Positions 3,400-8,490 of a stretch of 21,573 bases of DNA are shown one piece after another. The stretch is taken from the IMG/VR virus record IMGVR_UViG_3300048928_000631, positions 1 through 21,573 of that record, one strand, 5' to 3'. How positions within the stretch are numbered: position 1 is the stretch's first letter; each line of letters opens with the position of its first letter. Source of the stretch: a virus. Made by a program: the position numbers and the translations under genes. The notes under the pieces are model-generated. The model was not told where the DNA came from. It saw nothing but the letters and a program-made list of their open reading frames with translations, and searched no databases.

Positions 3400-3912
3400 A
3401 TGGACATTGTTATGACCACCGCCCCGGCGCGATCCGCTGTGGTTATTCCCCCTGACTTGGTTATTCCGCCTGATGCGGTGGTGAGTCCGGTTATCACCAA
3501 TACCTTTTTTTTCCCTGACGTTGACCCGGAGCAGGTGAGTGAAAACATCCGGCTTGGCCACGTCGTCACGCATGCGCGTTTTCGCCGCGCAATTAAGGCC
3601 GCGATGGCCGAGGTGAACGCCGAGCTTTATCCCTATCGCGATGCGCAGATTGAGGCGGGTTTTAAAACGCTGGCGGAGGTTCCCGCCGAGCAGCTCGACG
3701 GTGAAAGCGTGAAGTGTTTCCACTATTTGAGCGCGGTCTGCGCGATGACTACCGCCGTGATTTATGAGCGTTACCGCAGCTATGACGCCAGCGCGAAAGG
3801 GGACAAAAAGGCCGAAGCGCTGGAGGTTTCTGTGGATGACCAGTGGCGCGATATGCGCTGGCACGTCTCTCGCCTGCAAGGTCAGGCGCGCGGCATGGTG
3901 AGCCAGCTCTGA
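3400..3912 (+). CDS. L: Head completion/stabilisation protein gpL
   Basis: gpL is the P2 head completion protein, added after DNA packaging to prepare the filled head for tail joining. The product is 170 residues against about 169 in P2. Family features are the early SPVITNTFFFPDVDPEQVSENIRL region, in which FFPD-DP is characteristic, and the AKGDKKAEALEVSVDDQWRD segment toward the C-terminus. A GAGGTTTGAGAA ribosome site supports the ATG at 3400; an in-frame ATG at 3412 is an alternative. The stop overlaps the X start by one base. Confidence 0.93.
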   Translation: MDIVMTTAPARSAVVIPPDLVIPPDAVVSPVITNTFFFPDVDPEQVSENIRLGHVVTHARFRRAIKAAMAEVNAELYPYRDAQIEAGFKTLAEVPAEQLDGESVKCFHYLSAVCAMTTAVIYERYRSYDASAKGDKKAEALEVSVDDQWRDMRWHVSRLQGQARGMVSQL

Positions 3913-4115
3913 TGCAAGTTATCGCGCAGCAGGGCGATACGCTCGACGCCCTGTGTTATCGCCACTACGGGCGCACCGGCGGCGTGGTTGAGTCCGTGCT
4001 TGCTGCCAATCTCGGACTGGCTGAGCTGGGCGAAATTTTGCCACATGGCACCGTGGTGATTTTACCCGCCGTTGACGCCGCGCCGGTATCTGAAACCGTC
4101 CAGTTATGGGACTGA
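3912..4115 (+). CDS. X: Tail protein gpX (LysM-like)
   Basis: gpX is a small essential tail protein of P2-like phages, placed in the baseplate/hub assembly and built on a LysM-like fold. The reading frame gives 67 residues starting MQVIAQQGDTLDALCYRHYG, the same length as P2 gpX. The GDTLDALCYRHYG opening and the LPHGTVVILP ending are the usual signature. The ATG overlaps the L stop (TGATG), so translation is probably coupled. A longer frame starting at 3843 inside L has no support, because the added part is out-of-frame L sequence. Confidence 0.93.
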   Translation: MQVIAQQGDTLDALCYRHYGRTGGVVESVLAANLGLAELGEILPHGTVVILPAVDAAPVSETVQLWD

Positions 4116-4327
4116 AAATGGAAAAAATCACATCACAGATTGCCTACGGCCTTGCTATGTCACTGGCGTTTATTGGTGCGCTGACTCCGCAGGATATTGC
4201 GTTTCTGGTGGGGGCTCTGGTGGCCGTAGGGACATTCTTTGTTAACTGGTATTACCGCCGCAAAAGCTACAAGTTGCTGGAGCGTAACGGCCTGAGCCGG
4301 AGGGTTTTCGATGAGCTCAATCGCTAA
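4106..4327 (+). CDS. Y: Pinholin-like holin with two start codons
   Basis: This gene occupies the position of P2 holin Y but does not resemble it. The 73-residue product has two hydrophobic segments, about residues 12-29 and 31-48, and a basic C-terminus. The N-terminus (MGLKMEKITSQIAYG) resembles the phage 21 pinholin S21, which starts with two closely spaced Met codons giving antiholin and holin. Here ATG codons are at 4106 and 4118, and the extra peptide adds a lysine, as in S21. A GGGA element sits before the second ATG and little precedes the first. The gene overlaps the end of X by 10 bases and the start of K by 17. Holin identity is strong; the pinholin type is inferred from the sequence and from the SAR-like endolysin next door. 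Confidence 0.85.
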   Translation: MGLKMEKITSQIAYGLAMSLAFIGALTPQDIAFLVGALVAVGTFFVNWYYRRKSYKLLERNGLSRRVFDELNR

Positions 4328-4820
4328 GCGTTGCAGTGTGGTCGCAGTGCTGGCTCTGGCTGCACTGATGCCTGATTACCGTTATGTAAAAACCTCCGAT
4401 GAGGGGCTGGCACTTATTGCTGACCTTGAGGGGTGTCGCCTGAGTCCGTACCAGTGCAGCGCAGGCGTATGGACATCAGGTATCGGCCACACAGCGGGGG
4501 TGAAACCGGCAAAAAACATCACCGAACATGACGCCGCCCGCTATCTGATCGCTGACGTCATCATGACCGAACGCGCCGTGGATAAGTGTATGCCGGTGGC
4601 CATGCCGCCGCCGGTATATGACGCGGTGGCCAGTTTTGCGTTTAACGTTGGCACCGGCGCAGCCTGTCAATCCACGCTGGCCAACTTCATCAGGCTTGGT
4701 GAATGGGCGAAAGCCTGCCAGCAGCTCCCGCGCTGGGTGTATGTCAACGGCGTGAAAAATACGGGGCTGGAAAACCGACGCGCGCGCGAGCTGAAACATT
4801 GCCTGAAGGGGGTGTCATGA
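4311..4820 (+). CDS. K: SAR-type endolysin (lysozyme) gpK
   Basis: This is a muramidase of the T4/P1 lysozyme family, degrading peptidoglycan at lysis. The 169 residues begin with a short basic end followed by a weakly hydrophobic Ala/Leu/Val segment (about 8-20), typical of a signal-anchor-release domain that sends the enzyme to the periplasm tethered and inactive. The catalytic pattern E-x8-C-x5-T is at E40, C49 and T55, followed by GIGHT. Cysteines at 8 (in the SAR segment), 42 and 49 mirror the arrangement in P1 Lyz, where the active-site cysteine is blocked by a disulfide until the SAR segment leaves the membrane. P2 gpK itself is a cytoplasmic enzyme, so this cassette has a different lysis mechanism. 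The gene overlaps the holin and, by 4 bases, lysB. Confidence 0.92.
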   Translation: MSSIAKRCSVVAVLALAALMPDYRYVKTSDEGLALIADLEGCRLSPYQCSAGVWTSGIGHTAGVKPAKNITEHDAARYLIADVIMTERAVDKCMPVAMPPPVYDAVASFAFNVGTGAACQSTLANFIRLGEWAKACQQLPRWVYVNGVKNTGLENRRARELKHCLKGVS

Positions 4821-5239
4821 AATTTATCATTGCCGCGTTACTGCTCTCACTGGTGGCATCCCTTGCCGGTTGGCGATGGGCGAATAATAAGGTCACTGAG
4901 GCAAGCCGCACTATTGCGCAAATGCAGGGGGCGCTTGCGGCCAACGCGGTGGCCATCAGCGAACTGCAAGCCAGCGGTCAGCGTAATGAGCGAGCGCTGG
5001 TGGTACTGCGTCAGCAAATCACCGCAGCGGGTCAGCTTGCCAGCCGTCGTAATCAGACCATCACGAGGTTACTGAATGAAAATGAAACCCTGCGCCGCTG
5101 GTATCAGTCTGCTCTGCCTGACGATGTTGTCCGGCTGCACACGCGACCTGAATTTACCAACCCCGGCGATTATTTACGTTGGCTGTCCGAAGGTCAGCAG
5201 TTGCCCAATACCGGCCAGCCGCCCGAAAACCAACGGTGA
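4817..5239 (+). CDS. lysB: Inner-membrane spanin LysB (Rz-like)
   Basis: This is the i-spanin that joins an outer-membrane partner to fuse the two membranes in the last step of lysis. The 140-residue product has one N-terminal membrane segment (about residues 3-19, IIAALLLSLVASLAGW). A long helical, coiled-coil-prone periplasmic part follows, rich in Gln, Glu, Ala and Arg, with a Pro-containing end. The ATG at 4817 overlaps the K stop (ATGA) after a GGGGGTG ribosome site. A longer frame from 4703 only adds out-of-frame K sequence. The o-spanin gene lies in another frame over its 3' half, the standard Rz/Rz1 arrangement. The P2 lysA gene that would come between K and lysB is absent. Confidence 0.9.
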   Translation: MKFIIAALLLSLVASLAGWRWANNKVTEASRTIAQMQGALAANAVAISELQASGQRNERALVVLRQQITAAGQLASRRNQTITRLLNENETLRRWYQSALPDDVVRLHTRPEFTNPGDYLRWLSEGQQLPNTGQPPENQR

Positions 5240-5366
5240 TTTAAGCGAGGACAATCGCCAACTTGAGGGCGCACTGGTGAACTGTGCGCTGCAAGTCGAA
5301 GCCGTTAAACAGTGTCAGGAGTCCTACGATGTTAAAGCCCGCCAGCCTGAGAAAGGCGCTATTTAA
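5076..5366 (+). CDS. lysC: Outer-membrane spanin lipoprotein LysC (Rz1-like)
   Basis: This is the o-spanin partner of LysB. The 96-residue product has a lipoprotein signal ending in a lipobox (LSGC, modified cysteine at 21), preceded by a short hydrophobic stretch. Proline residues follow (NLPTPAI, CPIPASRP), usual for Rz1 proteins. The start lies inside lysB in a different frame; ATG codons at 5076 and 5082 are both possible. The 3' end overlaps R by 38 bases. A LysC that runs past the end of LysB is the P2 arrangement, whereas lambda Rz1 is fully nested. Confidence 0.88.
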   Translation: MKMKPCAAGISLLCLTMLSGCTRDLNLPTPAIIYVGCPKVSSCPIPASRPKTNGDLSEDNRQLEGALVNCALQVEAVKQCQESYDVKARQPEKGAI

Positions 5367-6521: not shown

Positions 6522-8459
6522 CTATTTAATAAGCCTCATTACTTCCAAGTCCTTAGCATCTAATAATTGTGGGTTTTTAACCATTTTGATTATAACTCCG
6601 TAAGGAATTGGAAATCTAGGAGTCTCTTTTCTATCCTTCCCCTTAATATCCTCCAATGTTTTCGCTAACTGAGCATCTTCAACTTTCGATAAGTATTGAT
6701 TCGTTGATGCAATAATCTCATCTGTTAAAAATCTATTAGCCATTCTCTCATGTTTTAAAATCACTGAGTAAACATCGTCTTTTTTAGCTGGAAAAAGTAC
6801 AACATCGGTAATTCCATGGTATTTTGCATAATTGAAATTTATCCTGTATCTTTGTGCGACCTGAATTTTGAAATATTCATAAATAATTTTATGTAAATTA
6901 TCTGGTTTTGCAGCGTCAGCTTTGACGAAGTGTTCAAGGTAAGAAGTTATGAAATGAGCTGTTTTTTGGAAAGTATCCTGTGATATAAATTTAAGTGTAT
7001 CTCTCACATAGCTAGAATAGTACTCTCCCGGGTAGGCTTCCAATAAAAAATCAGTCCGCTGTAAATCATCGAAATGCAGAGAATAAGATTCACCTAGGTT
7101 GTCAGAGAAGTAATGCAAGAAATTTAAATAAGTCATTTGCTTATCTAAAGGTGGGTGCATAACAATCCCAAAAAGCTCTGAAATTTCATTTTGATTTTTT
7201 GCTATACTGTAGTTATTTTTTTTATCATGGCTTTCGTGAAAATATTCTAAATAAAATTCTCTTCGGGTAGGAGATGCTGTTAGACAGTCAAAATATTCAG
7301 CTGGAAAATTTTTATCATGATAAATTAAAGTGAGTGAAGCCAATGTATAATGTATTCTTTTTTTTGCCCACATATCAATTAATGGGGATACCACCATATT
7401 GGAAATAAGTTTTACGGCGGTTTTAGAGTACAGGTTCGTTTTGTATTTTTGATCAAAGAAGAATAAAATAAAAATACACTCAATCAAGTTCTGATTTATA
7501 CTTATAGAATTGTAAAACTGCTCAGACAACTTTATGTTTGAAAAGTGGTACTTATAAGCAAGTTGAGTTGCTTCATCATGATGTTTAGATATGGCCTCAT
7601 TATTAATGTAGTTATAAATTTCAGCCACTAGATTAATATCGCATCGTTCTGCATATTCTTTTAATAAAGAAGTTCTCTCTTCTTCCCAGTCTCTAAAGCT
7701 GGAAAAACTAGTTTTCCTTTCTAAAAATACACTAGGTGTTATACTTGGTAAATCAAGCAAGGATGATAATTTAGAGAAAACACCAATATCAAATATGTTA
7801 AGTCGAGTTTCATTTCCTATCAACGTGGAGCTAGAGTTTACATGGCCTATGTTATCAAAAAAAGAGAATGGCTTACCATTGTTCCCAGTATTAGGTTGCG
7901 ACCAAGTTGGATAAAAGGAGTTGATTTCACCATTGCGATGTAAGACAGAAACCCTCAAGCATTTTAATGGTTCGTCAAGCTTGTAATAACATATTATCTC
8001 ACCGTCTCGACTCTCTGGTTCACTTATATTTAATAGGGCTTCATCTAATAAATTAAGGATTTCATTTTGCCCCATATCTTTTGGAAATAAAGTCTTCCAA
8101 AGATAGCCAGACTTATAACTATTCTCAGGGTACATTGTCATCTTGGCAGCACCAGAAGTGAGCATCGATTCTGGTAATTTTATTAAAATTGTTCCATTTT
8201 GAAGTTCACGTTCATAAAACCATTCCTCATCTCTTTCTGAATAAAAATAAGAAACTTTTTTTAAATCTGGTTTTTGCTTTAGCAAATTGATCCATCCAGA
8301 ATATGTATGCAACCCCCCAGATATAACCTTTTTTGCTATACGCCCGCCTGTGGTTTGAAATACCTTGTCCGTAAGGTCGCCGTAAAGAACGTGATTAAGA
8401 CATTTCTGTGATAGGGTTATTTCCAAATCCGCATTTATATGATACCGACGAAGTTCCAT
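6522..8459 (-). CDS. EndoU-domain nuclease, candidate anti-phage defence protein
   Basis: The predicted product has 645 residues from the ATG at 8459, which has an AGGAA ribosome site about nine bases upstream. A GTG at 8489 would add ten residues and lacks such a site. Residues ~15-190 read as a bacterial EndoU RNase domain: LNHVLYGD with H23, GGLH with H51, a candidate catalytic lysine K94 (NGTILIKLP), KTLFP at 122-126, then EILNLLDEAL, and RNGEINSFYPTW with S181 and Y183. The remaining ~450 residues are mixed, mostly helical and not recognised; no clear membrane span or signal peptide is seen. EndoU proteins cleave RNA, and several bacterial ones cleave tRNA. The gene is AT-rich, leftward against its neighbours, and sits between S and V, where P2 has the T5-excluding Z/fun gene. 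The defence role is inferred from that location. Confidence 0.75.
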   Translation of the reverse strand: MELRRYHINADLEITLSQKCLNHVLYGDLTDKVFQTTGGRIAKKVISGGLHTYSGWINLLKQKPDLKKVSYFYSERDEEWFYERELQNGTILIKLPESMLTSGAAKMTMYPENSYKSGYLWKTLFPKDMGQNEILNLLDEALLNISEPESRDGEIICYYKLDEPLKCLRVSVLHRNGEINSFYPTWSQPNTGNNGKPFSFFDNIGHVNSSSTLIGNETRLNIFDIGVFSKLSSLLDLPSITPSVFLERKTSFSSFRDWEEERTSLLKEYAERCDINLVAEIYNYINNEAISKHHDEATQLAYKYHFSNIKLSEQFYNSISINQNLIECIFILFFFDQKYKTNLYSKTAVKLISNMVVSPLIDMWAKKRIHYTLASLTLIYHDKNFPAEYFDCLTASPTRREFYLEYFHESHDKKNNYSIAKNQNEISELFGIVMHPPLDKQMTYLNFLHYFSDNLGESYSLHFDDLQRTDFLLEAYPGEYYSSYVRDTLKFISQDTFQKTAHFITSYLEHFVKADAAKPDNLHKIIYEYFKIQVAQRYRINFNYAKYHGITDVVLFPAKKDDVYSVILKHERMANRFLTDEIIASTNQYLSKVEDAQLAKTLEDIKGKDRKETPRFPIPYGVIIKMVKNPQLLDAKDLEVMRLIK

Positions 8460-8490
8460 GCTAAAATTCCTATTATTATTTAAAATCACA

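Follow-up and report, generated by a model that had tools for sequence, protein, structure and literature searches.

The stretch of DNA analysed here, hereafter the window, is a virus record of 21,573 bases with P2-type late genes, and its lysis genes most probably (a probability of roughly 0.88) form a standard HP1/Fels-2-type module of the Peduoviridae (P2 family), in which a pinholin is combined with a disulfide-caged SAR endolysin and with LysB/LysC. This reading draws on the identity of each gene, on the homology of the endolysin to P1 Lyz and of the holin to the HP1 family, on cysteines that are conserved and occur together, and on linkage of the cassette. Many related phages are known to have this design, to which the window adds a further P2-like example; for specialists little changes beyond the confirmation of a known lysis design in another P2-like phage. 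The useful part is that otherwise near-identical phages swap the holin, the endolysin, and the beginning of lysB as a unit. Natural endolysin variants with the motif E-x8-D-C, in addition, provide a way to ask whether disulfide caging requires a catalytic cysteine.

The genes are arranged in the order gpX, holin, endolysin, lysB, lysC, and then gpR. The gpX tail gene (3912..4115, + strand) is identified by PF05489 (90 bits) and codon analysis, and its 3' codons, Leu-Trp-Asp-stop, overlap the holin and form the upstream holin ATG. The holin (4106..4327, + strand, alternative start at 4118) has 73 codons and is assigned to the HP1 family of class II holins, as a probable pinholin, according to PF16080 (53.5 bits, above the cutoff of 28.8), the PHROGs holin family phrog_20 (3.8e-25), and hydropathy. 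It overlaps by 17 nt the P1 Lyz-like GH24 SAR endolysin (4311..4820, + strand, 169 aa), which is recognized by its sequence and fold matches to P1 Lyz and by invariant cysteines. LysB (4817..5239, + strand), an Rz-like inner-membrane spanin, scores 117.7 bits with TIGR03495 (cutoff 92.75), and LysC (5076..5366, + strand), an Rz1-like outer-membrane spanin, scores 114.3 bits with NF038368 (cutoff 27) and also matches PF23793; lysC is read in another frame than lysB, inside it and beyond its end. PHROGs labels the products as holin, endolysin, and Rz-like spanins, and NCBIfam as LysB and LysC; matches of this strength are well outside what chance would give. The megablast search of the cassette against phages gives 0 matches. 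As for the rest of the late region, a 655-aa ORF on the minus strand (6522-8489), which is flanked on both sides by late tail genes, has 0 matches in Pfam, PHROGs, NCBIfam, and PADLOC.

By analogy with characterized systems, we infer how export, tethering, disulfide exchange, pinhole size, and triggering may be organized. Sec would take the endolysin to the inner membrane, where the N-terminal SAR helix would hold the enzyme, and a disulfide would link C42 to the catalytic C49 for as long as the enzyme stays tethered. The small two-helix holin would accumulate and, at a set time, depolarize the membrane through small lesions. The SAR helix would then exit the bilayer, C8 would displace C49 from C42, and the freed endolysin would cut the wall, after which LysB/LysC would break the outer membrane.

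The initial annotation regarded the holin and the endolysin as a matched pair, and the loci recruited with gpX bear this out. Among these 72 loci, 46 combine a pinholin-type holin with a SAR-type endolysin, 17 combine Y with K, and 0 are mixed; the rest are 1 Y locus at a contig end, 7 loci in which neither type is found, and 1 locus having a distant lysozyme with no holin match. The pinholin/SAR cassette is thus common in gpX loci. The available part of PMC9239132 likewise states that the majority of phages whose endolysin is of the SAR type also encode a pinholin.

The holin was originally described as resembling S21 of phage 21 and not P2 Y, of which the second half stands and the first needs correction, since the closest family is that of HP1. 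No match to PF04550, the P2 Y family, is found for the window holin in the Pfam search, whereas P2 Y and 186 Orf24 are members of this family with >142 bits each. The models for P21 holin S (PF04971, 22.4 bits) and for the class II-like family PF16082 (25.6 bits) remain under their cutoffs (26 and 30, respectively). Pairwise BLASTP aligns the window holin neither with P2 Y nor with HP1 Hol, so the pinholin label, which is probable from sequence, is derived from family profiles. EssD, the S21-like holin of DLP12, does align (30% over 61 residues), and the window shares with the phage 21/DLP12 S21-R21 type (EssD/RrrD) a two-TM class II holin with AYG; apart from the Pfam cutoff, this type differs in that RrrD lacks the three regulatory cysteines. 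According to hydropathy, the two hydrophobic segments of the window holin occupy about residues 12-26 and 31-45, and TMD1 is clearly hydrophobic, unlike that of EssD and the S21 type, so the SAR-like first helix of S21 is not obviously common to both. The search for solved relatives of the holin returns only weak, unrelated matches.

The hol/lys genes of the Haemophilus phage HP1 (Peduoviridae) are similar to those of the window in several respects: both holins score above the PF16080 cutoff, the SAR endolysin has E-G-C...C...T and an N-terminal Cys, the genes overlap, and a LysB-like gene lies downstream. HP1 differs in having a holin without a dual start, a cassette located elsewhere in the genome, and a Cys-to-Glu distance of 36 residues (32 in the window). 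In the available part of Adamczyk-Poplawska et al. 2020 (PMC7312051), HP1 hol is reported to be a pinholin with no dual start and lys a SAR endolysin, on the basis of cloning, leakage tests, and hol deletion. The same part describes the overexpressed HP1 holin as C-out/N-in, unlike S21, which, together with its single start, the hydrophobic TMD1 of the window holin, and the S21 Pfam score under the cutoff, agrees with another explanation: the SAR endolysin is kept, but the holin, as a member of the HP1 family, makes large holes in the conventional way or is triggered unlike S21 (e.g., by movement of the C-terminal rather than the N-terminal helix). We consider this unlikely, because the HP1 holin leaked no beta-galactosidase according to PMC7312051, and because holins of this type are strictly paired with SAR endolysins in the gpX loci.

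The features that had suggested S21-like regulation are indeed present in the window holin, with ATG codons at 4106 and 4118 (M1-G-L-K-M5) and IAYG at residues 12-15. Since both ATGs are in frame and separated by an added Lys, translation from 4106 could yield an antiholin carrying the Lys and translation from 4118 the active pinholin, and the two starts are kept in 70 of 93 distinct holin ORFs (from 124, i.e., 123 loci and the window). However, the first start only is found in 17 of these 93, the second without the first in 5, and neither in 1. The residue preceding the second start is Ser in 36, Thr in 28, Asn in 24, Pro in 3, and Gln and Lys in 1 each of the 93, the single Lys being that of the window; correspondingly, K or R lies between the starts in only 1 of the 70 dual-start sequences from viral contigs, again the window itself. 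Its nearest relatives read MGLTMEKI, with ACA in place of the AAA of the window, one base apart. Moreover, the Leu-Trp-Asp/Glu-stop codons of gpX give rise to the upstream ATG, and the presence of two starts therefore follows largely from the gpX overlap: of 122 pinholin-type loci, 101 have ATG and 18 have GTG at the upstream position, and ATG is also present in 18/18 Y-type loci, though their holin begins 3' of gpX. In P2 and 186 themselves no ATG is formed at the gpX end. Both starts may be used in the window, but the S21 dual-start antiholin is rejected as an explanation of them, its added charge being unconserved and its ATG dictated by gpX, and regulation of this kind appears highly improbable.

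As for the endolysin, the residues C8, E40, C42, C49, and T55 can be read directly from the ORF where they had been placed, with E40/C49/T55 as catalytic and C8, C42, and C49 as regulatory residues, and with a SAR-like segment at about residues 8-20. The suggested match to the P1 Lyz arrangement is upheld by both sequence and fold. The protein scores 130.8 bits with PF00959, its closest solved relative is P1 Lyz (1xjt, 1.1e-25; 1xju, 3.2e-24), and the identity to P1 Lyz in a four-way alignment is 35%. Foldseek with the AlphaFold model ranks 1xjt (E 1.0e-07) and 1xju (E 2.0e-07) first, followed by the DLP12 and R21 endolysins. The model has a pLDDT of 80 and a pTM of 0.81, with mostly <50 at residues 44-64 around the active site, so disulfide geometry is not drawn from it. 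The GH24 fold with E-x8-C-x5-T is confirmed, and P1 Lyz also shares the Cys at E+2 and the Cys in the SAR segment. P1 differs in its holins and in having lydD/lydE adjoining lyz, in an 11-column insert in the four-way alignment, and in a SAR Cys located 29 residues before Glu (32 in the window). Xu et al., in 2005, are said to have found that the active-state disulfide of P1 Lyz joins the SAR Cys and the E+2 Cys.

Seven cysteines of the window endolysin (C8, C42, C49, and four more) are invariant in 26/26 aligned relatives, and 110 of 112 distinct lysozymes, the window included, have Cys exactly at E-32. The 2 exceptions are L008, in which the contig end cuts the protein, and L152, an unrelated lysozyme. 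A wider survey, with P1 Lyz, HP1 Lys, the variant L088, and the four-way alignment as queries, comprises 413 loci and 308 distinct proteins, 6 sequences without an anchor being dropped from the counts. An N-terminal Cys is accompanied by the E+2 Cys in 287/287 cases, while 18 of the 21 proteins without the former also lack the latter, counts that are inflated by kinship among the sequences; the other 3 are the truncated L008 and two proteins without a SAR-like segment (L361 and L365). A good number of the 21 have short leaders and yet keep the catalytic Cys. The catalytic Cys alone was rejected as a sign of caging, since GH24 lysozymes with short leaders and no long N-terminal segment carry it too, and the informative part is the pair of C8 and C42. 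Given the 26/26 invariance, the 287/287 co-occurrence, and P1 Lyz as the closest relative, P1-type disulfide caging of a SAR endolysin in the window is well supported at the sequence level. The hydropathy of the N-terminal stretch agrees with a SAR helix, but the stretch is short (~13 residues, then Pro-Asp) and less hydrophobic than in P1 Lyz, RrrD, and HP1 Lys, which, like the C8-to-Glu spacing of 32 residues (29 in P1 and 36 in HP1), is a point against this reading. Secretion through an ordinary cleaved signal peptide, with purely structural cysteines, can hardly be the explanation: the hydrophobic stretch after K6-R7 is indeed short, but no clear signal peptidase I site is seen by eye, and C8 is invariant and co-occurs with C42, which would be pointless if it were cleaved off.

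The motif E-x8-D-C, with a catalytic Asp and Cys next to it, occurs in 7 of the 308 surveyed proteins, which is not a frequency because one of the queries (L088) is itself such a variant. The SAR Cys and the E+2 Cys are kept in all 7. Searched as an exact DNA pattern, the motif is present in 12 viral contigs, with the SAR Cys at -32 in 12/12 and the E+2 Cys present by construction, being built into the pattern; the scan of genome contigs with this pattern gives 0 matches. The carriers are L088 and L092 (4400-4906 in each), L168, L195, L200, L202, and L203, and L446-L457, and the L088/L092 lineage is closely related to the window. In a tree of 250 sequences, all required to have the SAR Cys at -32, thinned to 62 rows and built with the motif masked, supported branches force at least 3 changes of the trait; a single gain with later losses could also account for it. 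We put it at slightly below even odds that the caging cysteine is separable from catalysis in this family. If E-x8-D-C enzymes are still caged, they would represent a natural test of the P1 model made by evolution, and the disulfide would silence the enzyme by holding the active site misfolded and not by capping a catalytic thiol. The literature search, which cannot target a motif, brought up no report on such variants.

The endolysin has relatives at 60-71% identity in Fels-2, SopEPhi, EtG, ENT90, RCIP0057, Midge, KP12, and other Klebsiella and Yersinia P2-like phages. Those of Midge and RCIP0057 carry a SAR endolysin annotation, and the Fels-2 record notes similarity to P1 Lyz. In Fels-2 the endolysin has the same place, 3' of gpX and the holin and 5' of lysB, but two small ORFs lie between it and lysB. 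The available part of PMC9902359 describes a P1-like SAR endolysin in a P2-type cassette of KP12, and reports that purified KP12.peg.319 lysed Klebsiella in spot tests; this protein is presumably the KP12 relative matched here.

According to the initial annotation, lysA is missing from the window as part of the change of lysis system. The gene is indeed missing, as lysB begins at 4817, overlapping the endolysin stop codon and leaving no room for it. Its absence, however, is uninformative on the holin type, because 10 pinholin/SAR loci have a lysA-like gene between the endolysin and lysB, while phage 186, which has Y/K, has none. These ten pinholin/SAR loci are L023, L047, L048, L049, L051, L056, L060, L066, L069, and L071, and in L049 two ORFs are called at this position.

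The claim that the cassette was switched fits the family but not the window itself. On a 55-row tree of gpM+gpL, the window included (10 of the 46 pinholin/SAR loci are omitted, as gpM or gpL is not found, and the Y locus at a contig end, L120, is counted as Y/K), at least 8 changes of cassette type are needed, of which well supported branches force 4, compared with 15.4 when shuffled. The 14-row clade of the window, in turn, is uniformly pinholin/SAR. For 6 of the 18 Y/K rows there is a pinholin/SAR partner with gpM+gpL identity of >=95%, and these six exchange pairs (L091/L100, L102/L111, L107/L105, L095/L112, L094/L104, and L093/L110), otherwise near-identical P2-like phages, may represent few events in one clade. 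The left breakpoint lies one base past the X stop in 5 of the 6 pairs and 28 bases before it in the sixth, and on the right similarity returns within lysB, 160-186 bases downstream of the endolysin stop. These positions show that the holin, the endolysin, and the 5' part of lysB move as a unit.
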